Shown: positions 1,224 to 17,995 of the stretch, piece after piece
Layout of the letters: each line of letters begins with the position of its first letter
How positions within the stretch are numbered: position 1 is the stretch's first letter
NCBI GenBank assembly: GCA_029258925.1
Contig: JAPDJV010000013.1
Coordinates: forward strand, 1-46,911
Reading direction: 5' to 3'
DNA: 46,911 nt
DNA from: Thermoproteota archaeon
GTDB lineage: Archaea > Thermoproteota > Thermoprotei_A > EX4484-217-1 > JAPDJV01
Program-made: the position numbers and the translations under genes
The notes under the pieces: model-generated
The model's input: the letters and a program-made list of their open reading frames with translations, nothing else
Database searches by the model: none
Told to the model about the DNA's origin: nothing

Positions 1224-1225
1224 AA

Positions 1226-1999
1226 ATGTGCACAAACCATATTACTGTTGCAGGCATAAGAGAAGTGTCTCTAGTAGACATGATAGGACATCCATGTTAC
1301 GTTATATGGCTTCCAGGATGCAACTTCAAGTGTCCTTGGTGCCAGAATACCCACGTGGTTGAGGGCAGAACGGTTATTGAGGTAAGCATTGAAGAATTGA
1401 GGAGAGAGCTGGAAGAAGCTTCTAAAATAGTCGACTACATCCACATCACTGGAGGAGAACCAACGCTCCATCCAGCACTTCTCTCGAAAATATTTAGCAT
1501 AGCTAAGGATGTAGGATTAAAGTGTAGTGTGGATACTAATGGGTCGAATCCAAAGGTGATCAAGGATCTCATAGCTAAAGGACTTCTCGACCATGTTGCA
1601 ATAGATTTAAAGTCATCTCCATATAGACAGGAGAATCTCAGCATTGTTGCGGGAATCCCGAGGGAATCAGTTAGAGATGTTTGGAAGAGAATTATTTTAA
1701 CATTAAACTATTCGTGTAGAAATGGTCTGGAAGTAGAGGCTAGGACAACGTTTGTACCTGGCCTCCTTAGCTTGGAAGATATTCTAGATGTTGGTAGATG
1801 GTTGAAGGAGGAGTTCGGGGAGTATAAGATAATATACGTGATACAGCAGTTTAATCCCTCACCCACGGTCAGAGATCCTAATTTCAGGAGAGTGAAGCCC
1901 ACTCCCAGAAGCATCCTATTAGATGCAGGATTGAAGGTTAAAGAACTCTACGGTTTAAACGTCTATATTAGGCTAATAGAGGAAACCCTAAAACTGTAA
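1226..1999 (+). CDS. nrdG: Anaerobic ribonucleotide reductase activating protein, radical SAM
   Basis: This 257-residue radical-SAM enzyme is expected to install the glycyl radical on the neighbouring reductase. The 4Fe-4S/SAM motif CxxxCxxC is seen as GCNFKCPWCQ (C32, C36, C39), followed by a glycine-rich SAM-binding stretch HITGGEPT. The start is an ATG 2 nt after the reductase stop, preceded by GGAGGAT about 10 nt upstream. The protein is longer than typical bacterial NrdG (about 150-170 residues) and resembles the longer archaeal activase or pyruvate-formate-lyase-activase-like form, so the assignment to NrdG rests partly on the tight operon. A non-coding stretch of about 400 nt follows. 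Confidence 0.88.
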   Translation: MCTNHITVAGIREVSLVDMIGHPCYVIWLPGCNFKCPWCQNTHVVEGRTVIEVSIEELRRELEEASKIVDYIHITGGEPTLHPALLSKIFSIAKDVGLKCSVDTNGSNPKVIKDLIAKGLLDHVAIDLKSSPYRQENLSIVAGIPRESVRDVWKRIILTLNYSCRNGLEVEARTTFVPGLLSLEDILDVGRWLKEEFGEYKIIYVIQQFNPSPTVRDPNFRRVKPTPRSILLDAGLKVKELYGLNVYIRLIEETLKL

Positions 2000-2214
2000 A
2001 TCCTTATCGAAAAACTCTCTTCTACTACTTCAAGAACTGTTGTGGGATAGATTATTTTAGCTCCGCAATCTCAACAATTGTTACTATCCAAATCTCCATA
2101 AGCTGGAAATACTTCACAAAGCATCTATGCTGACCTAAGATGGTACTGGTGGGTGATGACGTGAAATGTAGGAAATAGCATACTATAAGTGGGGGATTAT
2201 ATTCCACTAAACAT

Positions 2215-2279
2215 TTTTCTCAGCTACGACCGCACTCTTCATCTTCATGTCATATAAGCCCGCCACTCATCATAGAGAA
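2215..2279 (-). ncRNA. Candidate C/D box guide sRNA (1)
   Basis: Read on the minus strand there is a consensus C box ATGATGA (2267-2273) and a D box CTGA (2220-2223), 54 nt apart. Between them are a D'-like ATGA (2250-2253) and a C' box ATGAAGA (2236-2242, with a second overlapping copy at 2242-2248). The D guide, between C' and D, is exactly 12 nt (2224-2235). The flanks can form an imperfect 5-bp terminal stem (2275-2279 with 2215-2219, one mismatch), as expected for a kink-turn. By the D+5 rule the predicted target is CUACGACCGCAC, with 2'-O-methylation on the fifth base, G. It lies just downstream of the Ced block in the same orientation. The D' side is weak (13-nt spacer, ATGA). Confidence 0.5.
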
Positions 2280-2293
2280 GAATTGATTGTGTA

Positions 2294-2370
2294 TGGGGGG
2301 CTTGACGCCTAGGGGTTGGAGCCGCCAGGCCCTCATAGATCCCCGTGACGCGGGTTTTCTCAGCCGGCAT
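2294..2370. other. GC-rich hairpin island in the nrdG-cedB gap
   Basis: This stretch is far more GC-rich than its AT-rich surroundings and folds locally. One nested hairpin pairs GGGG (2312-2315) with CCCC (2341-2344) and encloses GAGCC (2319-2323), loop GCCA, and GGC-C-CTC (2328-2334). A second hairpin is CCCGTGACGCGGG (2342-2354), and a small one is GGCTTGACGCC. The word TGACGC occurs twice (2304-2309 and 2346-2351). It could be a structured RNA, or the decayed 3' end of an IS605/TnpB-type element, whose ends are typically GC-rich and structured. Neither is proven and the strand is unknown. In 2000-2214 I see no gene. Confidence 0.4.
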
Positions 2371-2396
2371 GAATATTATTACTTATAGACTAGTCT

Positions 2397-4202
2397 TTAA
2401 GATTTGCTTTTGACAGACATTATTCTAACTGCTTGAGGAACGGGGTTTCCAGGGGTTACGATTAATGCTTCTCCAGGCCTTAACCATCTAATCCTAGTCT
2501 TGGTCGACTCTCTCAATGGAAATATTCTGCCAAGATTATCCACGTAATCCTGGGATCTGGAGGGAAATGCAACAACCGTACCAGCATTGTTAACTATTTC
2601 AGGAGTTAAGTCCTCTATATCCTGTGTTGCAAGTACGATAGATATACCTAGACCTCTTCCCTGCTTCACTAGCCTCAATAAAAGCTTACCAGCACTAGTA
2701 TCCCTCAACAAGATCCACGACTCGTCCACACATATTATAGCTTTAAGAGTGGTTGAAGGTTCAAAGCCGTACCTACATAGAACTTCCTCTAATAGTAGTG
2801 TTGTAAAAGCTATCTTCTCCTCTATAGAGAGGCCGGAGAAATCATATATTATCACCTTCCCCGGAGGTAATTCTAGTTTATAATATCTGCTCTTTCTCAA
2901 CGATCTCAATTTGATGGAAGTCTCCTTAGAGTATTTTGCTGAATACTCTATTAAATCATCTATGCTGACCTCCCTTTTAGAGAGCAAGGTTCTTGAGATT
3001 ATGTCTTCGAGAATCTTCGCTTCGCCCGTGTTTAGCCTCAGTATTGTAGATAGCGCCTCAGATATTCTCTTAGACTTGACTTCAATGTTCCCCCTGCCCA
3101 AACTGAATACAAAGGGGGGCTCATGGTATAATTTCACAACTTTAATTCTCTCGTCCAGTTCGCCTAAAATAACCCTATAGTCTCCCTTATAGTCGAATAC
3201 TAGCACTGGAATCTGAAGGCTTTCAACTATTCTAAGCGATAACGTGTAGATGAAAGTGGTTTTACCCGTACCCGTCGGCCCAACGACTAATACGTGTCTT
3301 AGGAGGCTCTCGGGATTGATCATTACTGGAGAACCAGTGTCTCTGCTAAAACCTATTAAAACCCCCTGAGTTTCAATGCTCTTGGAGATGAAGTCCGGGT
3401 ATGGGGCTAGATGTGCTAAATCCAACGTTAATGCCTTCAACCCCTTTGCCGACTCTTCCCCTAATATCCCCAACAACATGATTTCAGATATCTCACTTAG
3501 AGAAGGCTTTGAAAGTTTGAGGCCCATTGTCGCTTCTAGCGATCCCTTCAACATCTTTAAGCTGTCGTTAATTCTTTGAGTAAGCCTATTTACATCAACG
3601 TCTCTATCCACTAAACACACATAATATGACACTTCAATAGGATTCTCTCCCCTCAATATCCTCTCCCTGATCTTCATTAAATCCGACAGCCTTCTCTTCG
3701 CCTTCAAGTCTGTTGGATCAGATGCTAACATTATCTCTAGCACTCCGATTTTTCTTTCAATATCCGACAGATACCTTGCTCTAGGAATATTCTTCTTCCT
3801 AACTATCAGTATTGCATCGCAGCTTATGGAGGAAATTGATATCGCAAAGCTTCTAGCCAAACTCGCAAGCATCGTATCATTATAGACGTCCACGAACTCC
3901 TCTATACTCGAAACTTTAAGAAACCCTATTCCTCTGAAGCCGTCCTTTAATTCGAATAATAGTACTCCGTCTTTAGAGAAAAACTTCAACCCGTCCATGT
4001 TGCTGGCAGATAGAATCCTATTTAGCCTTATTGTTGAAGAAGACCTTAAGCCTAGTCCAAACACTACTATAATCCAGGCGATGCTTGTTGCACCCATCAG
4101 CATCCAAAAATCTCTTAGGCCTAGTAGGAATAGGATCGCGGAAACCGTGAATATAGCGCTTAAAGTAAGAGTTAGTATTTGCACAATTCTAGTTCTCCAC
4201 AC
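2397..4202 (-). CDS. cedB: CedB-like HerA/VirB4-family DNA-import ATPase, membrane anchored
   Basis: This is a membrane-anchored hexameric-type ATPase of the HerA/VirB4 superfamily. In the crenarchaeal Ced system CedB is thought to power uptake of DNA through CedA. Two hydrophobic helices occupy about the first 55 residues. Walker A is GPTGTGKT (residues 308-315 from the chosen start), Walker B is CVDE (493-494 for DE), and a sensor-type LATQD follows (Q527). The longest ORF begins at a TTG at 4223 without a ribosome site. I chose the GTG at 4202 because GAGAGGA stands about 8 nt before it. It overlaps the end of the 61-residue gene upstream. The position directly after CedA1, CedA and a CedA2-like gene supports CedB rather than a generic HerA repair ATPase. 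Confidence 0.8.
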   Translation of the reverse strand: MWRTRIVQILTLTLSAIFTVSAILFLLGLRDFWMLMGATSIAWIIVVFGLGLRSSSTIRLNRILSASNMDGLKFFSKDGVLLFELKDGFRGIGFLKVSSIEEFVDVYNDTMLASLARSFAISISSISCDAILIVRKKNIPRARYLSDIERKIGVLEIMLASDPTDLKAKRRLSDLMKIRERILRGENPIEVSYYVCLVDRDVDVNRLTQRINDSLKMLKGSLEATMGLKLSKPSLSEISEIMLLGILGEESAKGLKALTLDLAHLAPYPDFISKSIETQGVLIGFSRDTGSPVMINPESLLRHVLVVGPTGTGKTTFIYTLSLRIVESLQIPVLVFDYKGDYRVILGELDERIKVVKLYHEPPFVFSLGRGNIEVKSKRISEALSTILRLNTGEAKILEDIISRTLLSKREVSIDDLIEYSAKYSKETSIKLRSLRKSRYYKLELPPGKVIIYDFSGLSIEEKIAFTTLLLEEVLCRYGFEPSTTLKAIICVDESWILLRDTSAGKLLLRLVKQGRGLGISIVLATQDIEDLTPEIVNNAGTVVAFPSRSQDYVDNLGRIFPLRESTKTRIRWLRPGEALIVTPGNPVPQAVRIMSVKSKS

Positions 4203-4374
4203 CTCTAGCCATCCTCTCAACAATTATTGTCGACAAGACTCCGGTACATAGAATCATTAGAAGGAGTATGATTTGATATACATCTATTCGAAATCCGGTC
4301 GACGCAACATACAATACTGTGAATAGGCTTACTATGATTAACATAGTTCTTGGAGTAATAGACAACTTCAACAC
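4189..4374 (-). CDS. Small two-helix membrane protein, CedA2-like
   Basis: This 61-residue protein is almost entirely two transmembrane helices (about residues 10-29 and 32-51) separated by a short turn, with a basic/acidic tail ERMARGVEN. It starts with GTG 6 nt after the cedA stop and its end overlaps the start of cedB. Sulfolobales Ced loci contain two small two-helix proteins, CedA1 and CedA2. CedA1 is identified separately here, so this one occupies the CedA2 position. Sequence similarity to CedA2 cannot be judged by eye, so the name is by position, size and topology only. Confidence 0.6.
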   Translation of the reverse strand: MLKLSITPRTMLIIVSLFTVLYVASTGFRIDVYQIILLLMILCTGVLSTIIVERMARGVEN

Positions 4375-4380
4375 CCTATG

Positions 4381-5850
4381 TCAAGGGGTTTTAACAGGGA
4401 TTCTGAAACCTCTCCCACCGATAACTCTCGACAGAGAATAGGATATGCTTAAGAGTACTGTAAGATATGTGGTTGGGAGTATCACCCACTCTACGAGCAA
4501 ACTTGCTATTAGCTTTGCAGCATCTCTCAGAATACCTTCTATCCCACCGCTCCCTTCGATGAAGTCTCTGACATAGTACTTTTCTCCGAAAACTCCTTTA
4601 TTAGGTGGTTTGGGCGATCCCGTGAAAAAGGCTTTAAATAGATGTGTTCCGGGGTAAACGTTTATTACGGCAGTATGTGATACAGTATTGCCATTATAGT
4701 GGTCCTCATGTATTACTGGGGAAACCTTGATGTCGTCTAGGAAGGATTCCTCCATCGTCATGGAACTTGGGAACACCATCTCCAAGCTAATCTCTCTTCT
4801 AGCTACTACAGTTAGCTCTATTAGCCCCTGATCTTCCAAATATTTGCCATCAACTACCTCGCCCTCACCCCTAATAGAGGCATATAGACATGGAGCGAAA
4901 CTCCATGAAACCTCTGGCACATATAAAGTACAATAGTAGTCGTAGGATGGGTCGGTTACTGGATCAAAAAGCCCATTCCTCTTTACATTGAATTCCTTAG
5001 GGATCACACTATAAGACTTTCCCGAGAGATATACTACCACAGTCATGTTAATGTTTAATGGAAGCCCCTTATCAGGCCTACCTGCATCTATCGTGCCATC
5101 GCTAATTGAAGAATACCTAGCATAAACTATACCGCTCTTATCTTTGAAAACTGCGTGAACCCATGGAATCCTATTTCCGTTAGCATCTATGAAAGAAAGC
5201 TTACAATATGCAACGCCTAGTTCATCTAAGCTTTTCCCAACAAGAAAACTGCTTCCATCAATAGTGGTAAGAGAGAAGTAAGATGTAAATAGAGGCAGAA
5301 GAGGAAGGCCCACATAAAATACTATTGCAAAACTCAACAATCCAGCTCCAATACTCCTTGCAATTCTAAAAGGTATGGAAAATAATAAAATTCCTAGGAA
5401 AATCATTTTAGTAAAATAAGTTTGAACTATTAAGCCTATTATAGTTATTGTCTCTAAAGCTATCATAACATACGTCAGAGCTGTAATTAATGGATTCACG
5501 AATGCTCCGAAAACATTCCCGCCGACAATATTTGAGGAAAACCATGTTTTAAGCAGGCCAATACCCGCTGTGAACATGGCAACGTAAGATATCCTCTGCG
5601 CGCTCCAAGAATAGAAGTTCCCCCAGCTTGCTCCAAGGAGGCCAGCAATGTACTCTGTTGAAGAAACTATTACTCCTGCAGAGAATATTAGTAGAGCTGA
5701 AGCAGCTCCATCGTATATTAATGTGGGAGCCCACCTCTTCAAACCCCACCATGGAATGGGGAGCGCGTAAATTAGCGTGCCAAGATAATATGTCAGGACA
5801 GATAAGGAAAAAGCCAGCAAGAGAATGTTGTCCAAGATTCCTCCCTCCAC
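4381..5850 (-). CDS. cedA: CedA-like polytopic DNA-import channel with large extracellular insert
   Basis: This 489-residue integral membrane protein is the predicted channel of the Ced DNA importer. About six hydrophobic segments fill residues 6-190. A soluble, beta-rich stretch (about 190-445, with a few cysteines) follows and one last helix lies near 447-475. The N-terminal hairpin carries PIPwwglKRwaptLIyD (31-47), which matches the same motif in the CedA1 pilin-like protein next door without a gap. Sulfolobus CedA is much shorter, so the insert before the last helix is a notable extra. The start is either GTG 5850 or TTG 5835, because the purine run GGAGGGAGGA lies between the two and would serve the TTG. 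It is translationally packed between CedA1 and the two-helix protein. Confidence 0.77.
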   Translation of the reverse strand: MEGGILDNILLLAFSLSVLTYYLGTLIYALPIPWWGLKRWAPTLIYDGAASALLIFSAGVIVSSTEYIAGLLGASWGNFYSWSAQRISYVAMFTAGIGLLKTWFSSNIVGGNVFGAFVNPLITALTYVMIALETITIIGLIVQTYFTKMIFLGILLFSIPFRIARSIGAGLLSFAIVFYVGLPLLPLFTSYFSLTTIDGSSFLVGKSLDELGVAYCKLSFIDANGNRIPWVHAVFKDKSGIVYARYSSISDGTIDAGRPDKGLPLNINMTVVVYLSGKSYSVIPKEFNVKRNGLFDPVTDPSYDYYCTLYVPEVSWSFAPCLYASIRGEGEVVDGKYLEDQGLIELTVVARREISLEMVFPSSMTMEESFLDDIKVSPVIHEDHYNGNTVSHTAVINVYPGTHLFKAFFTGSPKPPNKGVFGEKYYVRDFIEGSGGIEGILRDAAKLIASLLVEWVILPTTYLTVLLSISYSLSRVIGGRGFRIPVKTP

Positions 5851-5858
5851 CTATAATT

Positions 5859-6122
5859 CTAAATTGAGGGGGGTGGGGGCATTGGAAGGGAAACATTTGA
5901 CACTATATAAGATATTAAAGCGAAGACCGTTGACCCGAGGGCAAGCCAGAAAGCCCCTATAACAGCATCCTCTATGAGGTCTTGACCCAGCCTCTTTACT
6001 CTATAGAATGGAATAGGACTGCCTCTCAGCACCCATCCAATAGACCATGATAACAAGAAAAGAGCCCATGCTACCATCACAACTCTCACTGTTAAGTCCT
6101 GAATGAAAGATACTAAATCCAC
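5859..6122 (-). CDS. cedA1: CedA1, pilin-like two-helix subunit of the Ced DNA importer
   Basis: This small protein (87 residues from the chosen start) has two long hydrophobic helices joined by a polar hairpin RGSPIPFYRVKRLGQDLIED and a proline-rich tail. CedA1 is the archaeal counterpart of the VirB2-type conjugation pilin, in a system that imports DNA. The longest ORF starts at TTG 6146. However, a TATA box (6145-6156) overlaps that codon and would place transcription start near 6124, so I chose the GTG at 6122, giving a near-leaderless mRNA. The own promoter suggests independent, perhaps higher, expression than the rest of the block, as expected for a filament subunit. Confidence 0.8.
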   Translation of the reverse strand: MDLVSFIQDLTVRVVMVAWALFLLSWSIGWVLRGSPIPFYRVKRLGQDLIEDAVIGAFWLALGSTVFALISYIVSNVSLPMPPPPSI

Positions 6123-6144
6123 CCCTATCCCCGAGTAATAGATC

Positions 6145-6156
6145 AAATATAAAAAA
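6145..6156 (-). promoter_or_regulatory. TATA box of cedA1
   Basis: On the minus strand the run TTTTTTATATTT ends about 23 nt before the GTG start of cedA1. Archaeal TATA boxes sit 24-30 nt upstream of the transcription start, which would make the mRNA nearly leaderless and decides the start codon. Confidence 0.55.
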
Positions 6157-6188
6157 CGCTATATTTTGAAAAAGAAAGAAGGTAGATT

Positions 6189-9100
6189 CTACTTCCTCAA
6201 CGTGAATACTAGATAAACTGTTAACGCGAGTCCCAGTATCACTAACACTGCGATCATACCAATATAAGTCGCCAATCCTCCCTGCCCCTCTATTATTTGG
6301 TCAACTTTAACAGTTATGGTTCCTACATCTGTCTGAATCGTTGCAACATTATTCTTAATCTCCGTTATTATACCCTCAATGCTGCCTATTTCAGTCAATA
6401 TTTCAACTTTATTGGAGTTACCTATCCTCACAATCGTTGCATTCAGTTCGTCCAAATCTACCTCTACTATACCTAGCGCTGTATCTATTTTCGCCTTCAC
6501 TCCATCAGGTCCATTAATTAATTCTATTATAGTCGCGTTCAGCGATCTCAGCTGCAATATTACATCTTCGATTCTAAATGTTTCATTCTTTATTTGGGAA
6601 AGATCTTCGATAATAGTGTTCACTACAGGATTTATAGTGAAAGTCAACGCTCTTACAGCCTTCTGATCGACTATAGTGCTAGGAGTCACGTAGACTGGGC
6701 CATCGAACATGACTATAAGAGTATATGTTCCAGGGCCACCTACTACCGTTGACTGGAAATTATCAGACGTTAAATCTATCCAAACCTCATACACGCCCTT
6801 AACCACAGTGTCATTAGCTATTAGTGGAACCACGGGGAACTCTGAGGAATCCAAGTACGATGTGAATACTGATCCCTCTGAACCCACAACTTTTAGTAGG
6901 ATGTTGAATGCAGATACGTCAACATCAACTGGTTCACCGTTAAACTTAGTTATTATAGTCAAGTGGTATGCAGAAGTATTGTTTCCATAGTAGAGAAGGC
7001 CTCCTTCAAGCTCTATGCTCAACCCTTCATAATCGTACGGATATATGAACACTTCCATAGACTCCGCTTGGCTTATACCATAAGCATCCAGCGCATCCTG
7101 ATATGCTGATATAGTATAGTATCCTAATACTATGTTCCATATGAAGCCATCTTCATACACAGCCGAGGGAACTCTGAATGACACCGTAAACTCGCCGTTG
7201 TCATTTGCCGTGGTCTCTGCTATCACTCTATCATAGAACATTATCAAAACATCCTCGTTTTCCAGGAAACCGTAGCCCTTAACAGTTAACATGCTACCTA
7301 CTTGGACAGCTAAGGGCTCCGCTTCTATTCTCGGAACTATTTTCACGGGTACAGGTATTGTTAGGTTCATTGGATCCTCAACGAACACGGATATATAGTA
7401 TGTTCCAGCGGGTAGCGATGGAACAGTGAACAATACTTCCGCCTCTCCATTAGCATAAACATTCATAGATATGTCTTGAGACGGCTCCATCACTATGGGC
7501 ATGGGACTAACTCTCTTCAATACTACGTCCACAAGTTCTGTTCTAGGACCGAAGCCCACTCCCTCAACCTTCACCAAGTCTCCAACACTAATTGTGTCTG
7601 TGAGAATCCACATTCCACCCCTATATACGTAGACGGCTACTCTCATTTTGGGGATCAGTGTGAATATCCATGGAGACCCTCCTTTACTGCTTCTTATAGG
7701 CCCTATTTCACCAAACTTTTCTTCAACTATTATAACAGTATAGTCCTTTTTCGCCACGACTGGTGCGATGAAGGAAGCATTAACGTAGACGTCTCCGGAA
7801 GACATCACACCCTTTACTTGTCCAGTAATGTCAACTGGAATAAGCTCGCCAGTATCGGGGTCTACTAGGAGAATAGAGGTTATCGTATCGTTTACACCAA
7901 ATATTTGAATACTTAACGTCGATTCAGGAGTAGTCGAGCCTACAGGTGAAGGTGTTAACACCCACGGCGTGTAGACATGTACATAAACCGTGGAGCCGTT
8001 CTCGAACAATAGTGGGGCAACCTCTCCAACACCCTCAAAGACTAGTTCGAAGCAATAGATGTCTTCAGATACTGATGGAATTATCAGAGTTACATTAGCA
8101 TACATGTTTACACCCTTACTATAGAACACTACGTTACCCACTTCAACAAAGTACTCGTCTCCACTAGGCGAGACCACTTTAGCTTCAATAATGTTCGAAG
8201 CCACTCCTTTAATACCCAGCATAACAGTGTATCCCGGATACAGCTCTGTTCTGGAAACATATTCGACAAAAGCCTCGCGCACAGTTAAATTCCATATATT
8301 TCCCTCAACACTCATCCACAAGTATCCCACTTCACCTAGGTCTCTCTCAACTAGAACCAACTGGTATACTCCAGCAGGTATAGCTGGAATCCTTAAGGAG
8401 GCATTCAAGTATCCGCCAGAAGGCCCATAGTGTACTTCGCTCAGTAGAGAAGTTGACGCTGCAAGAGTTCCATTACACCAGAATTCCACAGATTCGATAC
8501 TTGGAACAGCCCCCACTATGGTTAGATTGATTAAGTCTCCTGGCAACACTGTTGTAGCCGACTCGTAAGCCACTATTGGCATTAATACTCTTAAGCCTCC
8601 GGCAATGTAAACGAGATCCGTTTCGTTCTCCACGATAGCTACACTATAATTACCGCTCACAACATTAGGAGTCATTATGGTCAACTTAAGAGTAGCATTA
8701 TCCGGATAGTATTCTTGCCAAAGTATTTCAGCAGTAACAGTAGTACCGTCTGCCACAAATAGAACCATTCCGGCCTCGCTACTTAAACCCACAACTGTTA
8801 TGTTAACTGGATCACCTGGAAACGTGTCGTTAGTGAACGTAACAAGGTCTACTAGTGAGGTAGTGATAGGAATTACCGTTAAATAGTCAGCATACTCGGC
8901 GTAACCGTAAGGAGTTTCATTGTATTTGTCGAGGCTTATCGCAACAACGTAATCTCCCCACGGAATGTTAGGTACTATGAATTCCAATGTTAAGTTTCCA
9001 TCTGCACCTATAGGAGGCTTACTCACATATGGCACTTCGTGGATTCTCTGTTCTCCAATTAACCACACATGGTAATTCATCTGGTTGGGGTAGAGGCCTA

Positions 9101-10817
9101 CGGCAGTGAGGCTAACTATTGTACCCGGAACAGCGAAGACGGGTTCAACACTAGTTATATTTGCTTCGATAGTGAAGTACACTCTCTCAAAGCCCTTAAA
9201 GTACTCTACTTCATATAATTCGTTAACAGTCCCCTTGACGTAGTATACTCCACCTGCCTTAGCAGGAACACTGCTTAAAACTGCTACTGCAACACCTGTT
9301 TCATCAGCTATAGCTGAGGCTAGACACCCTAATACGTAGCTGGGAGTATCATTGAATACGAAGCTCACTCTGACACTATCTCCAGGCAACAGACCGTTAA
9401 AAACTATGGTAATGTCCTGGAGAGAACCTGCTACACCGCTTTCAGGCGTAACAGACGCTATCTGAGGCAATACCTCAAACGTGAATTCTGTTAGAGTTGA
9501 CCCACTATCGTAACCTAGTTTAACGACATATGTGCATCCCGGTATCTCCGGTATCTCCATAGTCCCGCTTCCATTTATGACGCCCGAGGAATCCGCTGTC
9601 ACAGTGCCTATTACGTATTTGCCATAAGTTTCATTAAAGAATATTACTTCAACTTCCTCTAACGGCTTAAATCCGTATCCAACTATTACAGGCTTGTCCC
9701 CCACGTATCCCTGAGAAGGCGTAAATGATGTGACCAATGGTAAGATCTCTATGATGTCTTCCTCGAATAGCATATTATCCGGTAACGTACCACTTATGTT
9801 TAGATCATAGTATCCTCTAGTAATATTATGTGGCAATGTGAATGTTGTGTTGACGTAGCTCGTTCCATTGACTTCAACGTCTATGGAATATGTGGAGAAT
9901 TCTCCCACGAGTTTCAGCTTTAATACTTCAGGTGCAAAATATTTGGCTACAACGTTTACAATGGTTTTCCCCGGATAGCCTTCAGATGGCTTAAATGATA
10001 CTAGCTCTGGGTAGGGAACTATGAGAGTCTTATTTGACAATGCCTCATTGCCTTCAGTTGGTCCAACTATGGCTATAGCATAGCCCTCGGGAAGCCTCGG
10101 CAAGTCTGGTGGGAGGAGAACATCGAAGTAAATGTCTCCACTCTCATTTGGAATAGAACTAGCCAAATAAACCTCTAATCCATCGGGGCCAATTAAAGTA
10201 AACTTCACTTCTTCGGCTCTGAACCCCCATCCACCAATCCTTATCCTCACAAGCCCTGGCACACCGTAAAGCAATTCTTCAGTGTTCTCTGAGAGAGCTT
10301 CTCCACTAATGTTCCACGTGGTTGCCACGTAATCCTCTACAATCATAGGTTTAACTAGAAAAAGCTTTGCTGGATCCACTATGTAGACTCTCTCCAACTC
10401 CACAAAAGAACCATTGGGGTAAAGCGTTCCTAAAGCAACGGTAACATTATAATAGTCGTGTTGCATGTGCGGTAGTTCCACGCCTGAAATAGACCATTCT
10501 CCATCCGATGAATTATAGAACAGCCTGCCTCCACTAGTCACAAAGAATGCATCAATGTCTCCCCCAGCAATCCTATAGTATCCTGGAATGGTTGTTGCAT
10601 TGAACACTACATACGATGCATTTACTGGTAGCTCCGGTGTTACAGTACCGAAAACGATCACTAAATCCCCTACGCTCCCCTCAGGCTTACCAGTCTCTAT
10701 ACTCAGAACACCCATTACAGCATTTACTGTCTCATCCGCTTTGATCAATGGTAATTGAATGAACATTACAGTTAACAACAAAATACATACCAACAGCGTT
10801 TTCGTACTCCTACTCAT
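6189..10817 (-). CDS. Giant S-layer-like surface protein with Ig-like repeats, coiled coil and C-terminal anchor
   Basis: This 1542-residue secreted protein has a signal peptide (MSRSTKTLLVC..., cleavage near IKADE) and about ten tandem Ig/IPT-like units of roughly 100-130 residues. Each unit opens with a P-x-x-G...V-x-V-x-G-x-G-like phrase, such as FTPSQGYVGDKPVIVGYGF. A stretch of about 110 residues then has coiled-coil character (many I/V/L heptads). One transmembrane helix and the short tail FTLRK end the protein. NxS/T glycosylation sites are abundant. This is the layout of crenarchaeal S-layer stalk or tetrabrachion-type proteins. The longest ORF starts at a TTG at 10838, but GGAGGG lies just downstream of it and 9 nt before ATG 10817, so that ATG is chosen. 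It lies 66 nt upstream of cedA1 on the same strand. The ligand or partner is unknown. Confidence 0.82.
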   Translation of the reverse strand: MSRSTKTLLVCILLLTVMFIQLPLIKADETVNAVMGVLSIETGKPEGSVGDLVIVFGTVTPELPVNASYVVFNATTIPGYYRIAGGDIDAFFVTSGGRLFYNSSDGEWSISGVELPHMQHDYYNVTVALGTLYPNGSFVELERVYIVDPAKLFLVKPMIVEDYVATTWNISGEALSENTEELLYGVPGLVRIRIGGWGFRAEEVKFTLIGPDGLEVYLASSIPNESGDIYFDVLLPPDLPRLPEGYAIAIVGPTEGNEALSNKTLIVPYPELVSFKPSEGYPGKTIVNVVAKYFAPEVLKLKLVGEFSTYSIDVEVNGTSYVNTTFTLPHNITRGYYDLNISGTLPDNMLFEEDIIEILPLVTSFTPSQGYVGDKPVIVGYGFKPLEEVEVIFFNETYGKYVIGTVTADSSGVINGSGTMEIPEIPGCTYVVKLGYDSGSTLTEFTFEVLPQIASVTPESGVAGSLQDITIVFNGLLPGDSVRVSFVFNDTPSYVLGCLASAIADETGVAVAVLSSVPAKAGGVYYVKGTVNELYEVEYFKGFERVYFTIEANITSVEPVFAVPGTIVSLTAVGLYPNQMNYHVWLIGEQRIHEVPYVSKPPIGADGNLTLEFIVPNIPWGDYVVAISLDKYNETPYGYAEYADYLTVIPITTSLVDLVTFTNDTFPGDPVNITVVGLSSEAGMVLFVADGTTVTAEILWQEYYPDNATLKLTIMTPNVVSGNYSVAIVENETDLVYIAGGLRVLMPIVAYESATTVLPGDLINLTIVGAVPSIESVEFWCNGTLAASTSLLSEVHYGPSGGYLNASLRIPAIPAGVYQLVLVERDLGEVGYLWMSVEGNIWNLTVREAFVEYVSRTELYPGYTVMLGIKGVASNIIEAKVVSPSGDEYFVEVGNVVFYSKGVNMYANVTLIIPSVSEDIYCFELVFEGVGEVAPLLFENGSTVYVHVYTPWVLTPSPVGSTTPESTLSIQIFGVNDTITSILLVDPDTGELIPVDITGQVKGVMSSGDVYVNASFIAPVVAKKDYTVIIVEEKFGEIGPIRSSKGGSPWIFTLIPKMRVAVYVYRGGMWILTDTISVGDLVKVEGVGFGPRTELVDVVLKRVSPMPIVMEPSQDISMNVYANGEAEVLFTVPSLPAGTYYISVFVEDPMNLTIPVPVKIVPRIEAEPLAVQVGSMLTVKGYGFLENEDVLIMFYDRVIAETTANDNGEFTVSFRVPSAVYEDGFIWNIVLGYYTISAYQDALDAYGISQAESMEVFIYPYDYEGLSIELEGGLLYYGNNTSAYHLTIITKFNGEPVDVDVSAFNILLKVVGSEGSVFTSYLDSSEFPVVPLIANDTVVKGVYEVWIDLTSDNFQSTVVGGPGTYTLIVMFDGPVYVTPSTIVDQKAVRALTFTINPVVNTIIEDLSQIKNETFRIEDVILQLRSLNATIIELINGPDGVKAKIDTALGIVEVDLDELNATIVRIGNSNKVEILTEIGSIEGIITEIKNNVATIQTDVGTITVKVDQIIEGQGGLATYIGMIAVLVILGLALTVYLVFTLRK

Positions 10818-10982: not shown

Positions 10983-11207
10983 CTATGCTCTAACCTTTAT
11001 CAAAGCCTTCTTCCTAGTTCTCACTATAGGAGTAATCTTCACATCTTCAAGATTTGGAGGAGAAAGCCTCGAGTTACATCGGGGACAAACCCCTCCATAC
11101 CAGTTGATGATTTCAGAGGGAGTTGGAATACCGTAGTAATCTTGACCTACTTTCTCAAATCTGTACAATATGAATCCGCAGTGCTTACAGGCGTAGATTA
11201 CAGGCAT
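10983..11207 (-). CDS. Small zinc ribbon protein
   Basis: This 74-residue protein has two CxxC knuckles, CKHC near residues 7-10 and CPRC near 37-40, and a basic C-terminal tail (RTRKKALIKVRA). The arrangement is that of a rubredoxin-like zinc ribbon, common among small archaeal nucleic-acid or transcription-associated proteins. It stands alone between the surface protein gene and the ornithine carbamoyltransferase gene, in the same direction as both. I cannot name its family or partner. The stretch after it, 11208-11478, is AT-rich and shows no gene or RNA that I recognise. Confidence 0.7.
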   Translation of the reverse strand: MPVIYACKHCGFILYRFEKVGQDYYGIPTPSEIINWYGGVCPRCNSRLSPPNLEDVKITPIVRTRKKALIKVRA

Positions 11208-11478: not shown

Positions 11479-12420
11479 TTACAAGATTAGGGAGAGCACT
11501 GCTTTCTCTGTATGCAACCTGTTTTCAGCTTGATCCCACACTGCACTCCATGACCCATCAATTACATCATCTGTTACCTCCACTCCCCTATGAGCCGGCA
11601 AGCAATGCATAAACATGACGTTTTCAGACGCGTATTCAAGAAGCTCTCTATTTACTTGAAATCCTCTGAAATCCCTCATCCTCTTCTCAGCTTCCTCCTC
11701 CTGCCCCATCGAGACCCATACGTCGGTATAGACTACATCAGCCCCTCTGACCGCCTCAATGGGATTATTTGTCAACATAATGCTTCCCCCACTCCTCCTA
11801 CAGTCTTCCTCACATATTTCGAGGACCTCCCTATCCGGCTCATAGCCTCTCGGCGTTGCAACCCTAATATTAGCCCCCATCTTAGAGCAGGCCACCATAA
11901 GAGAGTGAGCCACGTTATTTCCATCCCCCACCCAAGCAACGTTCACCCCCCTAATTCTCCCCTTCCACTCTAGAATTGTCATTAGGTCTGCCAGAGCTTG
12001 ACATGGATGAAACTTGTCAGACAACAAGTTTACGACGGGGACGCTGGAGTACTCGGCTAGCGTGACTATGTCTTCATGCCTGTAAACTCTAGCCCCAATA
12101 CAGTCCACGTATTTAGATAGAACTCTAGCAGTATCAGCTATAGTCTCGCCCCTTCCCAGCTGCAACTCAAACCAGTTCAGGGATATTGGGTGTCCTCCAA
12201 GCTGTGCCACAGCTACCTCAAAAGATACTCTAGTCCTCGTACTAGGTTTCTGGAATATTAAGCAAACGCTTCTGCCTTCAAGAACAGGTATTATCCTCTC
12301 TCCAGCATAATATCTCTCCTTAAAGTTCATGGCAGTTCTCAGGATGAACTCTATTTCCCCACTACTATAGTCTTGGAGTGTTATGAGGCCTCTTCCCTTA
12401 AATCGCACTCCAACCTGCAC
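11479..12420 (-). CDS. argF: Ornithine carbamoyltransferase
   Basis: This enzyme transfers carbamoyl from carbamoyl phosphate to ornithine to give citrulline (arginine synthesis, or the reverse in arginine breakdown). It has 313 residues, normal for the family. The carbamoyl-phosphate motif STRTR, the HPCQALADL motif, and the ornithine-binding loop MHCLPAHRG near the C-terminus are all present; the last separates it from aspartate carbamoyltransferase. It starts with GTG at 12420, with TTAATATATT around 12442-12453 as the likely TATA box. No other arginine gene is in the window, so the direction of use is unknown. It is divergent from the acyltransferase gene, and the two promoters share the same 60 nt. 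Confidence 0.93.
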   Translation of the reverse strand: MQVGVRFKGRGLITLQDYSSGEIEFILRTAMNFKERYYAGERIIPVLEGRSVCLIFQKPSTRTRVSFEVAVAQLGGHPISLNWFELQLGRGETIADTARVLSKYVDCIGARVYRHEDIVTLAEYSSVPVVNLLSDKFHPCQALADLMTILEWKGRIRGVNVAWVGDGNNVAHSLMVACSKMGANIRVATPRGYEPDREVLEICEEDCRRSGGSIMLTNNPIEAVRGADVVYTDVWVSMGQEEEAEKRMRDFRGFQVNRELLEYASENVMFMHCLPAHRGVEVTDDVIDGSWSAVWDQAENRLHTEKAVLSLIL

Positions 12421-13210: not shown

Positions 13211-15198
13211 TGGTTAGGCGGAAATTTTGGCCAACGATAGTAAATTTATGGTGGTGCCCCTACTGTAATCTACCTATACTAAGAGAGAAATGTGATAAGT
13301 GTGGGGGAGAGGGATTTAAGCTTAAAATAGCCGAGCCATGTGACGCAAAACCAGCATTCCAACACGACCTAGAAGTTCTCAGAGAAGCCGTTGAATGGGA
13401 GCTTCAGAGCACTAAGGCACCTAAAGCATTATTCGAAGAGGGGAAGTTTGTACTCTTAAACAAGAGCACCCACCTAGATGATGCAAAAGAAGTCGTAGTA
13501 GATGGAAACGTTGCTGGACTACTATACTTCGATCCTATTAGATTTAGATGGAGGTTCAGGCCCTACTACTATGCATCTGTTAAACTACTCGAATATAACG
13601 CGGTGGATTACCTAGTATTCGACGATATACGAAGACCTAGGCAGGGGGATTACTTAGACGCTGTTTCGCTTGACAGCTTCAGAGAGGTAATAGTAGTAGA
13701 TCGTAATGGAGATCCCATAGGCTTAGCGAAGCGTCTGGGAGACGGAAGGACAAGAATATTTAAGACTTTTAAAAGAGGTGTCTGGGAGACCTCCGAGTCT
13801 AAAGCATCGTTTTCAGACGTCTACAGAGCAAACGAGTACATGATATATTACTTAGAGTCGAGAGCAAGAAAGTTTCTTTACGTCATGGACTCTAAAGTGA
13901 GGAAAAAAGTAATAGTGTCTTTTTCAGGCGGGAAAGATAGCTTGGTATCCCTTCACCTATCATTCAACACCATAGGTGAACCGGAATTATTGTTCAACGA
14001 TACTGGCATAGAGCTTCCCGAGACTATAGAGAACGTTCACAGAACTGCCGAGAAATACTGCTTAAAGCTGACTGTAGCCGATGCCGGGGACTCTTTTTGG
14101 AGAAATGTCGAAATGTATGGGCCTCCTGCAAGAGACTATAGGTGGTGTTGTAAAACATGTAAGCTAGTACCTCTCTCCAAGGTTGTCTCGAGGAAGTGGC
14201 CTGAAGGAGCCTTAAATGTTGTCGGACAGAGAGCATTTGAATCCTTAGATAGAGCTAGAAGTCCGAGAGTCTGGAGAAACCAGTACGTGCCCGTCCTACT
14301 CTCTATATCACCAATCCAGGAATGGCCCCAACTAGCAATATGGCTCTACATATACAAGTATGGTCTCGAAGCAAACGCTCTCTACTATAGAGGCTTCGAG
14401 AGAATAGGATGCTTCATGTGTCCTGCAAGCAGGCTTGCAGAATTCGAAGACGTGAAAAGAGTTCACCCGGAGATATGGGGGAGGTGGGAGAACTTTCTAC
14501 TTAAATGGGCTAAGAGAATCGGTGTTCCAGCGGATTGGGCGAAATACGGATTGTGGAGATGGCTTGTCAACGCTTCGCCGAAAAGAAATCTAGCTAGGAG
14601 AGCAGGTATAAGGCTTCCTGAGTGGAGCGAAACGTATAGGCGATGGCTTATCCCTGCAGTAATCGATGCAATTAAATATGAAAGAGGAGGAGAAGTCGAA
14701 ATCCACGTAAAGCTATCGTCTCCAATAGATCTCAGCGTTGTAAGAGACCAGAAGAGCATTATTGGTGAAATAGTCCGCGAAAATTCAGATAAGCTTGTAT
14801 TTCACGATTCAAACCACGAGGCCGAGACGACAATATATGCAAGTGGAGAAGTGGTCTCACATGCAAGTAATGCCTCAGATGCTGTTGAAAGCATAATCAC
14901 CGCACTCAAATTAATCTACAGGGGCTTAATGTGCAGTAAGTGTCTCTCATGTGAAATATGGTGTCCGAGCAATGCCGTTAAGGTCGAAGACCGCCCAATT
15001 ATAGATGCTGAGCAGTGCCAGAGGTGTCTAGTATGCATTTACATGTGCCCTGTTTCAGAGGTCGTTGTCGAACACTTGGCTGCAGCACTATTCTTAAATG
15101 ATCAATGGGCTTGGAGAAGGATATCTAAGCCTAGGAGAAAGGATATCGTAGCCAAAATCAAGACGGTTATATTGTCTAGCGATCCCAGTAAACCCTAG
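13210..15198 (+). CDS. Zinc ribbon-PUA-PAPS reductase-like-ferredoxin fusion protein
   Basis: This is a 662-residue multidomain protein. In order it has a zinc ribbon (C16, C19, C28, C31), a PUA-like RNA-binding segment (about 85-190, with VVVDGNVAGLLYFD and VVVDRNGDPIG), an ATP-pyrophosphatase core of the PAPS-reductase type with the PP-loop SGGKDS (239-244), extra cysteines (RWCCKTC; GCFMCPASR), and two C-terminal 4Fe-4S clusters, each CxxCxxCxxxCP. PAPS reductase-like archaeal proteins are usually annotated as sulfate-assimilation enzymes. The PUA domain and PP-loop together suggest instead ATP-dependent sulfur or adenyl chemistry on RNA; that is inference. It is coupled to the acyltransferase by TAATG. 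Its last 23 nt overlap the 3' end of the convergent helicase gene. Confidence 0.8.
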   Translation: MVRRKFWPTIVNLWWCPYCNLPILREKCDKCGGEGFKLKIAEPCDAKPAFQHDLEVLREAVEWELQSTKAPKALFEEGKFVLLNKSTHLDDAKEVVVDGNVAGLLYFDPIRFRWRFRPYYYASVKLLEYNAVDYLVFDDIRRPRQGDYLDAVSLDSFREVIVVDRNGDPIGLAKRLGDGRTRIFKTFKRGVWETSESKASFSDVYRANEYMIYYLESRARKFLYVMDSKVRKKVIVSFSGGKDSLVSLHLSFNTIGEPELLFNDTGIELPETIENVHRTAEKYCLKLTVADAGDSFWRNVEMYGPPARDYRWCCKTCKLVPLSKVVSRKWPEGALNVVGQRAFESLDRARSPRVWRNQYVPVLLSISPIQEWPQLAIWLYIYKYGLEANALYYRGFERIGCFMCPASRLAEFEDVKRVHPEIWGRWENFLLKWAKRIGVPADWAKYGLWRWLVNASPKRNLARRAGIRLPEWSETYRRWLIPAVIDAIKYERGGEVEIHVKLSSPIDLSVVRDQKSIIGEIVRENSDKLVFHDSNHEAETTIYASGEVVSHASNASDAVESIITALKLIYRGLMCSKCLSCEIWCPSNAVKVEDRPIIDAEQCQRCLVCIYMCPVSEVVVEHLAAALFLNDQWAWRRISKPRRKDIVAKIKTVILSSDPSKP

Positions 15199-17995
15199 TT
15201 CTAACATAGTTCCTTTCCGCAAGAAATATAGCCTTATAAAACTCTTCTTCACCCTCCAAAAGTTTTCCCACGACTCTCGCTGCAGTTGAGGGACCAATAC
15301 CGTAAGCGGATAAAGCTATTATGGCCGGCTTACCGTATACTAGTACCAGGTCTCCTATTTTCCTAAGCATGTTAAACCTCCTTAACTCTTCACCTCTAAG
15401 CCTCCTAAATCTATGGAATCTCCTGACAATCATTTCAGAATAATTGTCATCAGGTCTCAACACTCCAATAAACCTGGAACCACACTTGGGACAAGTAACT
15501 CTATCAGGTATATCCTTCACTCTCTCAATAGTACTCCACTTACCACACATGAGGCACACGAGCTTCACTCTCTTGTTTAAGATTCTCTTCTTCATCAAAT
15601 CTATTATCATATTGGGAGGCATTGGAGGAGAGATAGCATCATAAACGTTCAAGCTAAGCAATGCCTCCTCCCCTAAAATAGAAGGCCTTCCTCCCAGCTT
15701 ATCCTCAACAACCATCTTCACTCTATTCTTCTTCAAATCCTCCAGGAGTATTCTAATAGGTTCGAGACTCAAGTAGTCTGTAAGTATTTCTCTTAAAGCC
15801 TCCACACCTATAACTGTATCTTTTAAAGTTTCGAGAATCCTCCCAACACTTCTAAGACTAGCATCTCTCGATATTACGCCAAATCTCTTGGCTACGTGGA
15901 AAAGCCTCCACTTAAATAGATTAGTGTTTTTCACAGCCTCTACAATCTCTCCCTCGATATCCTCAAGACGATGAGGGGAGAGGAGTTCTCTTATTAGACT
16001 TGAAGGTATAGGTTTAGGTGTAATGATCATAATTCTATACGGGTCGCTCTTAGACGCGATAGAGAATTTCAGGTTTCTTGAAAGAGTGTGGACAAGGTAT
16101 ATTTCAAGAGCTCTATTCCCCCTAGTACCTAGGGGTGCGTGAATTATGATTGTTCTACCAAGATTCTCTATCACCAAATGTTTATCGTCCGGAACGAATT
16201 CTCCTCTCTTAATGGCTTCTTCAACGAATTCCAGTAGCTTACTGACAACATCTTCGGTCGCCGGGTATTTTCGGAGAATCCTTCTACCCGTGTCTCTCTT
16301 CATCAACAATCTTCTCAGAGCTCCGACTTCTCGTGCAACCTTGAAATGAACTGGAATGAGCTCCCCCTCCCATGCTGGAATAGCTCCGAGAACTTCTGGA
16401 CTCGGCTCAACTTTCACCACATCCTCATAAATACCTACAATCCTCCAAACACTCCCACCTAAAATAAACTTGAATCCTTCTCTCCCATTTAATGCAACAA
16501 ACAACTCATCTAGAACACCTATAGTAGTGTTAGAGATCACATCTTTAACGAGATAATGTCTTGTGTCGGGGATCATAGAAGTAGTATAATAGTATTTCCA
16601 TATGCCCCATCCCATTCTCAGCATTCCATCCCTGTATCGAACTAGACCCTGTGAATCTAGCTGTCTAACAACATCCATGAACTCCTCTAAACTAAGATCT
16701 CTGTAAAAATATGATCTAATAACAGTCCTGTAGGCTTCTTCAACGCTAATCCTACCATTAGCCTCTAAAACCATTCCAGCTATTTGATGCGCTAGAACAT
16801 CAAGCGCCTTGAAATGAGGTTTCTCCTCCTCCAATTCCCCACTAACTGCCCTACGTGCCAATACCAGAGACTCCATCATATCATCCACGTTGTCACTAGC
16901 TATAATAATCCCCCTAGAAGTATCTCCCAGTCTATGACCTGATCTGCCAACTCTCTGAAGAAGCTTCACAGCTTGTCTTGGCGACATGTACTGAATCACT
17001 AGATCAACACTACCTATGTCAATTCCCAGTTCAAGCGACGAAGTGCAGATTATTGCCTTAATCTTCCCGTTCTTAAATTCTTCTTCAACCCTTATTCTAA
17101 TCTCTCTTGAAAGGCTTCCATGGTGAACGCTCACAGTGTTCTCCGAATAAGCATTTATTCTTGAAGCTAAGAGCTCGGCCATATCCCTAGTATTCGTGAA
17201 TATTAGAATGCTGGCATGTTTCTCCATCAAGTCCAGAATTCTCTTCAATCTAACCATTATGCTCGGTGAAATTCCCAGTTCTTCTTGCCCATCGATGTCT
17301 GCTTCCGAGAACCTGGGAGACTCCACGATTATTTCAATAGGTTTCAAATAGTCTACATTGACTTCAACAACCCTCCTCCAACCCCCACCTAGCATTCCCT
17401 TAGCGTGCTCAATGTTACCTATGGTTGCAGACAAGCCGATTCTCTGAACTCTCCTCGATACAATATTGGACAATCTTTCGAGCGCTAGGGATAGTTGAAC
17501 CCCTCTCTTATCGTAGAGAAGTTCGTGTAGCTCATCTACTATGATCCACCTGACTTTCCTCAAATGCCTTCTAGTGCTCCTAGCTACTAGCAGGAATTGT
17601 AGGGTTTCGGGTGTAGTTATAAGCATGTTAGGTGGATTAGCAGCTATCTTCCTTCTTTGAGACTGGGGGGTGTCACCGTGTCTAATGGCAACGCTAATGC
17701 CCACTTTCTCGGCTATCCTCTTCATCCTCCTATAAATATCCCTATTTAAAGCTCTCAGAGGAGTTATGTAGAGTATTTGTATTCCTGTAGATTCAGGTTT
17801 TGACAAAAACATGCTGTAAACTGGGAAGAGAGCAGCCTCTGTTTTCCCAACCCCTGTAGGAGCACATATTATCGTATGTTCTCCACTCAGCACAATACGT
17901 ATTGCCCTTTCCTGGACTGGAGTTGGCTCTACATATCCTTCTCTACGTATCGCTTCCCTCAGCTTAGGATGTAGGATGTCGAATGCTTTCCCCAT
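15176..17995 (-). CDS. lhr: Lhr-type superfamily 2 helicase
   Basis: This 939-residue 'large helicase-related' ATPase translocates along nucleic acid and unwinds duplexes; archaeal Lhr is linked to DNA repair or RNA processing. Walker A is APTGVGKT (45-52), the DEAD-type box is DELH (154-157), and helicase motif VI appears as QRVGRSGHR. The winged-helix and Lhr-specific middle region follow. Near the C-terminus a four-Cys zinc ribbon (CLMC...CPKC) is present, a feature of some archaeal Lhr subtypes. The length fits the Lhr core. The 3' end overlaps the convergent fusion gene by 23 nt, and the 5' end is divergent from the HerA-like gene. Confidence 0.92.
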   Translation of the reverse strand: MGKAFDILHPKLREAIRREGYVEPTPVQERAIRIVLSGEHTIICAPTGVGKTEAALFPVYSMFLSKPESTGIQILYITPLRALNRDIYRRMKRIAEKVGISVAIRHGDTPQSQRRKIAANPPNMLITTPETLQFLLVARSTRRHLRKVRWIIVDELHELLYDKRGVQLSLALERLSNIVSRRVQRIGLSATIGNIEHAKGMLGGGWRRVVEVNVDYLKPIEIIVESPRFSEADIDGQEELGISPSIMVRLKRILDLMEKHASILIFTNTRDMAELLASRINAYSENTVSVHHGSLSREIRIRVEEEFKNGKIKAIICTSSLELGIDIGSVDLVIQYMSPRQAVKLLQRVGRSGHRLGDTSRGIIIASDNVDDMMESLVLARRAVSGELEEEKPHFKALDVLAHQIAGMVLEANGRISVEEAYRTVIRSYFYRDLSLEEFMDVVRQLDSQGLVRYRDGMLRMGWGIWKYYYTTSMIPDTRHYLVKDVISNTTIGVLDELFVALNGREGFKFILGGSVWRIVGIYEDVVKVEPSPEVLGAIPAWEGELIPVHFKVAREVGALRRLLMKRDTGRRILRKYPATEDVVSKLLEFVEEAIKRGEFVPDDKHLVIENLGRTIIIHAPLGTRGNRALEIYLVHTLSRNLKFSIASKSDPYRIMIITPKPIPSSLIRELLSPHRLEDIEGEIVEAVKNTNLFKWRLFHVAKRFGVISRDASLRSVGRILETLKDTVIGVEALREILTDYLSLEPIRILLEDLKKNRVKMVVEDKLGGRPSILGEEALLSLNVYDAISPPMPPNMIIDLMKKRILNKRVKLVCLMCGKWSTIERVKDIPDRVTCPKCGSRFIGVLRPDDNYSEMIVRRFHRFRRLRGEELRRFNMLRKIGDLVLVYGKPAIIALSAYGIGPSTAARVVGKLLEGEEEFYKAIFLAERNYVRTRVYWDR

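Follow-up and report, generated by a model that had tools for sequence, protein, structure and literature searches.

Is a gene for a giant surface protein that lies directly upstream of a DNA-import operon part of the import machinery or simply its neighbor? The question is raised by a 46,911-nucleotide contig of a heat-loving thermoproteotal archaeon (JAPDJV010000013.1; "the window" below means this whole stretch), in which an original prediction had read five consecutive minus-strand genes as a 1542-residue surface protein (here SURF), CedA1, CedA, a two-helix CedA2-like protein, and CedB, and had proposed SURF as a possible collar, receptor, or gate for the Ced importer. All five open reading frames (ORFs) were found (Table 1), and we consider it probable that an ordinary Ced operon stands here beside a separately transcribed, fast-evolving gene of the surface-layer (S-layer) type, with SURF not being a dedicated Ced subunit. 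We favor this reading because of the identities of the Ced proteins, because SURF is rich in glycosylation sites, has no full-length relatives, and is missing from the matching block of three sister genomes, because a T-rich stretch and a TATA-like box lie between it and cedA1, because a protein of the same architecture is encoded away from ced in a sister genome, and because the damage-response box frequently present before cedA1 was not found before the S-layer genes tested beside ced elsewhere.

Our comparison covered 229 genomes of the class, in which the window genome is the single representative of its family; a sister family of the same order contributes three genomes (loci L033, L034, and L035). 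CedA1 is present in 177 of the 229, and the locus survey took in 142 cedA1 loci, of which 110 have at least 5 kb of upstream sequence; the 80 named loci were drawn from the species collection. The identification of CedA1, CedA, and CedB in the original prediction is borne out by profile matches and by a solved relative. CedA1 scored 131 bits against NF041797, above the curated cutoff of 100 (E 1.2e-38), and matched the Aeropyrum pernix pilin structure (PDB 8dfu; E 3.9e-26). CedA (NF041796; E 4.7e-49), CedB (NF041017; E 6.4e-52, with a HerA/DUF87 domain), and the second ATPase, CedD (NF053655; E 9.3e-18), matched with scores under the cutoffs, although the CedA and CedB matches are strong; CedA additionally gave a weak CedA1 match, as expected of a CedA1-homologous N terminus, and CedD was found in the same block of the sister genomes. 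Pilin, channel, and both ATPases were thus all recovered by profile. The 61-residue protein matched none of the library models but has two predicted membrane helices, and a two-helix ORF of 45 to 80 amino acids (aa) lies directly 3' of cedA in 85 of 126 loci; its position and topology thus make it a reasonable candidate for CedA2. By these assignments, the window holds the whole known Ced set except CedE, which is specific to Saccharolobus. The Ced proteins of Sulfolobales and A. pernix build a pilus and channel resembling a type IV secretion system for DNA import (PMC9905601, PMC11868833). By analogy, we infer DNA import by Ced in the window organism, with a CedA1 pilus, a CedA pore, a CedA2-like partner, and a CedB motor, and with CedD encoded nearby, together forming what would be a standard, complete uptake system.

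The architecture ascribed to SURF in the original prediction was likewise confirmed, with weak TIG and PGS matches for its immunoglobulin (Ig)-like repeats. The ORF opens at a TTG (10838; 1549 aa), and the ATG at 10817 (1542 aa) is preceded by a GAGGAGG ribosome-binding site. The protein begins with an N-terminal hydrophobic segment and a long beta-rich region, continues into some 100 aa of coiled coil, and ends in a membrane helix; it carries 38 N-glycosylation sequons where 9.4 would be expected from its composition. A single-sequence AlphaFold model of the last 450 aa showed strands and then the terminal helix at low confidence (predicted local distance difference test [pLDDT] score, 46), too poor for use in a structure search. 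Signal peptide, beta domains, coiled coil, anchor, and sequon density together agree with the broad features of crenarchaeal S-layer proteins, and the designation of SURF as S-layer-like is well supported. No full-length relative was found in the 229 genomes; partial matches to other surface proteins covered only the stalk (aa 1422 to 1548) and single Ig-like domains, which is the usual pattern of fast-evolving S-layer proteins. In sister genome G001, a 790-aa frame lying some 127 kb away from ced encodes an anchored protein with Ig domains and a coiled coil, a likely counterpart of SURF in role. SURF is most likely an ordinary protein of the surface layer, with a promoter of its own. In this scenario, SURF would be a heavily glycosylated S-layer or S-layer-like protein, made from its own transcript and anchored by its C-terminal helix, and part of the envelope material that any CedA1 pilus must cross.

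Gene order in the sister family supports this separation. All three sister loci read zinc-ribbon gene, cedA1, cedA, two-helix gene, and cedB, and past the zinc-ribbon gene, the block encodes a left-handed beta-helix transferase, a PAPS-reductase-like protein, the Lhr helicase, and CedD. None of the three has a surface gene at ced, from which we conclude that the window lineage acquired SURF by an insertion that separates cedA1 from the zinc-ribbon gene. Since the GC content over SURF resembles that of its flanks and both flanks stand in the expected synteny, an assembly join is unlikely. Compared with the sister genomes, the block has also gained an ornithine carbamoyltransferase gene by insertion (window positions 11479 to 12420).

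The junction itself points the same way. The SURF stop codon (6191 to 6189) is followed by TTCTTTCTTTTTC and then by TTTTTTATATTT, which ends about 23 nucleotides (nt) before the probable cedA1 GTG at 6122. Across the cedA1 loci, a TATA-like hexamer is commonest at -33 to -30, including at loci whose upstream gene points the opposite way. The T-rich stretch after SURF, together with the TATA-like box at -31 from the cedA1 GTG, makes it unlikely that the two genes share an operon; most simply read, a transcript of its own begins at cedA1. SURF thus probably lies outside the ced transcript, and the idea that it leads the operon is weakened. Larger gaps separate the S-layer gene from the next gene at L037, L058, and L052 too. 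A member of the Ced operon would be expected to be conserved beside cedA1 in close relatives and to be cotranscribed; SURF is lacking at ced in 3/3 sister genomes, and a separate cedA1 promoter is likely.

The gene upstream of cedA1 is usually a PAPS-reductase-like gene on the opposite strand or the Lhr helicase gene on the same strand. A giant same-strand surface gene encoding a coiled coil and a C-terminal helix occurs in the window and at five further loci in three other families (Table 1). One of these, L037, encodes the tetrabrachion of Staphylothermus marinus (PF11401, 2.6e-33; near-perfect match to the solved stalk, 1ybk/1fe6). The five proteins outside the window align with one another in stalk and membrane segment, whereas SURF matches them marginally (best, 3.4e-5, in the coiled coil). 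More than 90% of the cedA1 loci with enough upstream sequence lack an S-layer-type gene, which, together with its absence in the sister genomes, indicates that SURF is not a conserved Ced component. The stalk profile also finds matches far from ced elsewhere in the class (e.g., G113, G118, and G121). Genome G016 belongs to the same genus as S. marinus (genome G037), and no relative of tetrabrachion was seen in it, at ced or anywhere else; within a single genus, then, the S-layer gene was lost or another took its place.

Could such placements arise by pure chance, with S-layer genes landing randomly at a rearrangement-prone site that elsewhere holds the Lhr helicase, PAPS-reductase-like, or other genes? 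The gene upstream of cedA1 does vary widely between genera. However, in 2.8 Mb of sampled DNA (2964 ORFs), just two anchored surface ORFs of at least 1000 aa, or seven of at least 700 aa, lay away from ced, a background of 0.07 to 0.24% per gene; over three upstream positions on one strand at 110 loci, this predicts 0.11 to 0.39 chance loci, against the five seen outside the window. Families f4 and f16 have intervening pilin genes in common and perhaps reflect one event, so that we count two to three independent placements; the probability of at least two outside the window is 0.006 to 0.06, depending on the size cutoff. The sampling was limited, and edge effects reduce the background rate to some degree, so this enrichment is suggestive only; we regard pure chance as a fairly improbable explanation. 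The gene-order comparison thus gave a divided answer to the original prediction, which had held that the link would be accidental if SURF were not conserved. SURF is indeed not conserved in the sisters, but "accidental" is too strong a word, since similar giant S-layer genes recur beyond chance in three other families, including the tetrabrachion gene of S. marinus. This recurrence hints at a weak tendency for genes of the cell surface and of DNA exchange to lie together. Our literature search, which covered few subscription articles, returned no report joining tetrabrachion with CedA1 or the Ced system or describing this arrangement.

That same recurrence weighs against a plain operon-and-neighbor reading of the window, as do several further points. 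The gap between SURF and cedA1 is only 43 to 67 nt, so that read-through is possible. The S-layer identity of SURF is an assignment by architecture, and the 400 kb outside the window that we inspected for rival S-layer candidates encode a 1179-aa anchored protein, albeit one without a recognized stalk.

A second explanation gives the clustering a function. In this scenario, the S-layer glycoprotein would serve as a species tag, pilins, where present, would bind partner cells, Ced would import the DNA, and clustering would keep all of these together. Ups pili of Sulfolobales have been proposed to recognize S-layer N-glycans, thereby gating Ced-dependent DNA exchange (PMC7064770), which makes the clustering of S-layer, pilin, and ced genes in f4 and f16 a sensible hypothesis. 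At 4/5 of the outside loci, two genes whose products have N termini like those of type IV pilins stand between the S-layer gene and ced, and the count of five loci exceeds chance expectation. One small pilin-like protein, that of L058, matches UpsB weakly (E 3.2e-5); the UpsB model matches archaeal pilins broadly, so this match is unspecific and we did not retain an UpsB identity for the linked small pilins, and outside Sulfolobaceae no match exceeded the UpsB cutoff. The window itself is without the pilin pair, most genomes are without such clustering, and S. marinus has the arrangement while its congener G016, itself devoid of a tetrabrachion relative, does not. A loosely clustered recognition-plus-uptake locus is possible, though of low probability. 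We find it quite doubtful that, in several hyperthermophile families, the gene of the S-layer glycoprotein (the bearer of the species-recognition glycans in Sulfolobales) and Ced, with adhesive pilins in some, are inherited and diverge together in the manner of a mating-type locus.

Families f4 and f16 have the pilin-like pairs (107 to 140 and 604 to 726 aa) immediately 5' of cedA1; at L139, the pair was found and no S-layer gene was seen. In genus g41 of family f7, the gene next upstream of cedA1 encodes a different protein, of 643 to 649 aa, with a pilin-like N terminus (L154:2869-4818, L158:441-2372, and L159:7026-8966).

If a conserved piece of the Ced machinery spans the envelope, CedA offers a better candidate than SURF. 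CedA is at least 430 aa long in 115 of 116 non-Sulfolobaceae loci, versus 252 to 263 aa in Sulfolobaceae, and a high-confidence AlphaFold model (mean pLDDT, 91; alignment of 52 sequences) places a beta-sandwich ectodomain between membrane helices at about residues 212 to 412. The same 115 loci carry this ectodomain of about 200 aa, which Sulfolobaceae CedA lacks. Its matches in the PDB were weak (pilin modules, TM-scores near 0.2), so we assign it to the beta-sandwich fold class only; a sequence hint of a lectin (E ~0.1) was not trusted. That SURF is a dedicated accessory, letting the CedA1 pilus through the S-layer as the proposed collar, receptor, or gate, is very unlikely: it lies on the cedA1 strand at a short distance and giant coiled-coil surface genes recur upstream of cedA1, but SURF is absent at ced in the sister genomes and such genes in most of the class, cedA1 likely has a separate promoter, the conserved CedA ectodomain could do the same job, and tetrabrachion, the best-characterized case, makes up the bulk S-layer in S. 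marinus and is no pilus collar (PMC5744192).

The regulation of ced bears on the preferred reading of separate transcription as well. In Sulfolobales, ANTTTC is the Orc1-2 damage-response element (PMC9738581). Between -70 and -45 of cedA1, it occurs in 39 of 121 distinct promoters, compared with 4.5 in shuffled sequences (maximum, 12 in 200 shuffles), in 4/121 on the other strand, and in 2.8% of 645 other promoters of the same loci (versus 32% for cedA1); as the loci are related to each other, no P value for these counts is to be taken literally. The enrichment suggests that ced may be damage inducible in these archaea. The box was seen at L034, L036, L037, L058, L062, L066, L083, L097, L146, L166, and others, mostly 13 to 16 nt before the TATA-like box, outside Sulfolobaceae too. 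It was not found at -70 to -45 of the window cedA1 or before the S-layer genes tested in related loci; one ATTTTC at -81 of SURF, wrongly spaced from its TATA, was taken as chance. Upstream of the small pilin-like gene at L037 (before 6526) and L083 (before 4989) stands GAAACTATTC, the reverse complement of GAATAGTTTC and possibly an inverted damage-response box.

Table 1. Features of the window and of compared cedA1 loci (f, family)
Locus	Feature	Positions	Strand	Basis or remark
Window	cedB, VirB4/HerA-like ATPase, two N-terminal membrane helices	2397..4223	-	NF041017, HerA/DUF87
Window	cedA2-like two-helix membrane protein, 61 aa	4189..4374	-	Position and topology
Window	cedA, VirB6-like channel, 489 aa	4381..5850	-	NF041796, structure model
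Window	cedA1, VirB2-like pilin	5859..6122	-	Probable GTG start 6122; ORF opens at TTG 6146
Window	TATA-like box TTTTTTATATTT	6145..6156	-	Upstream of cedA1; best TTTATA match at -31 from GTG
Window	T-rich stretch TTCTTTCTTTTTC, possible archaeal terminator	6168..6180	-	3' of SURF stop; putative function
Window (f1)	SURF, S-layer-like surface protein, 1542 aa, upstream of cedA1	6189..10817	-	ATG start, signal peptide, beta-rich repeats, coiled coil, membrane anchor
Window	SURF C-terminal membrane helix	6207..6263	-	Hydropathy; helix in structure model
Window	SURF coiled-coil stalk	6294..6575	-	Residues ~1422-1515 of 1549-aa ORF; sequence-related to other surface-protein stalks
Window	Zinc-ribbon protein	10983..11207	-	Adjoins cedA1 upstream in sister family; marks SURF insertion site
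Window	Lhr-type helicase	15176..17995	-	Synteny; conserved neighbor of ced/cedD
Window	CedD-like ATPase, second VirB4-like subunit, N-terminal membrane helices	18077..19909	+	NF053655
L052 (f8)	Surface protein, 1494 aa			Nearest upstream gene bar doubtful 66-aa ORF
L037 (f4)	Surface protein, 1527 aa			S. marinus tetrabrachion
L083 (f4)	Surface protein, 1611 aa			Truncated by contig
L058 (f16)	Surface protein, 1322 aa			
L062 (f16)	Surface protein			Last 205 aa only
L037	Pilin-like pair	6526-8905		
L083	Pilin-like pair	4989-7329		
L058	Pilin-like pair	7749-9939		
L062	Pilin-like pair	766-2929		
L139	Pilin-like pair	6398-8981		

Should the clustering prove functional, it would tie a recognition protein of the envelope to the DNA-exchange machine in archaea without Ups pili and may explain a possible choice of partners. 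Even if it does not, the survey maps the ced locus across the class and brings out the conserved CedA ectodomain as well as, beyond Sulfolobales, a promoter element of the damage-response type.

Compared with known systems, the window shares with the Ced loci of Sulfolobales and A. pernix the gene set and the order cedA1-cedA-cedA2-cedB, the CedB/CedD pair, and a pilin with a solved relative, and differs in the S-layer-like gene directly upstream, in that no damage-response box was found upstream of cedA1, and, relative to Sulfolobaceae, in its long CedA with a beta ectodomain. The Ups pilus genes of Sulfolobales find a parallel in related genomes, where pilin-like genes adjoin ced and one is weakly UpsB-like; the window has no such pair. 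Tetrabrachion resembles SURF in length (~1530 to 1540 aa), signal peptide, beta-rich arms, and C-terminal coiled coil with membrane helix, and its own genome encodes it upstream of cedA1. However, SURF has no sequence homology to it beyond weak coiled-coil scores, its stalk of about 100 aa lacks the 11-residue periodicity (a 3.667 peak that is strong in L037 and L083), and PF11401 found no match in the window genome, so that we rejected SURF as a tetrabrachion; S. marinus, moreover, has two pilin-like genes before cedA1, and the window has none. With the SlaB-type anchors of Sulfolobales, SURF shares, by described architecture (PMC5744192, which reviews the SlaB/tetrabrachion type), the beta-sandwich domains, the coiled coil, and the C-terminal membrane helix, but it has many more beta repeats and no slaA partner gene alongside.

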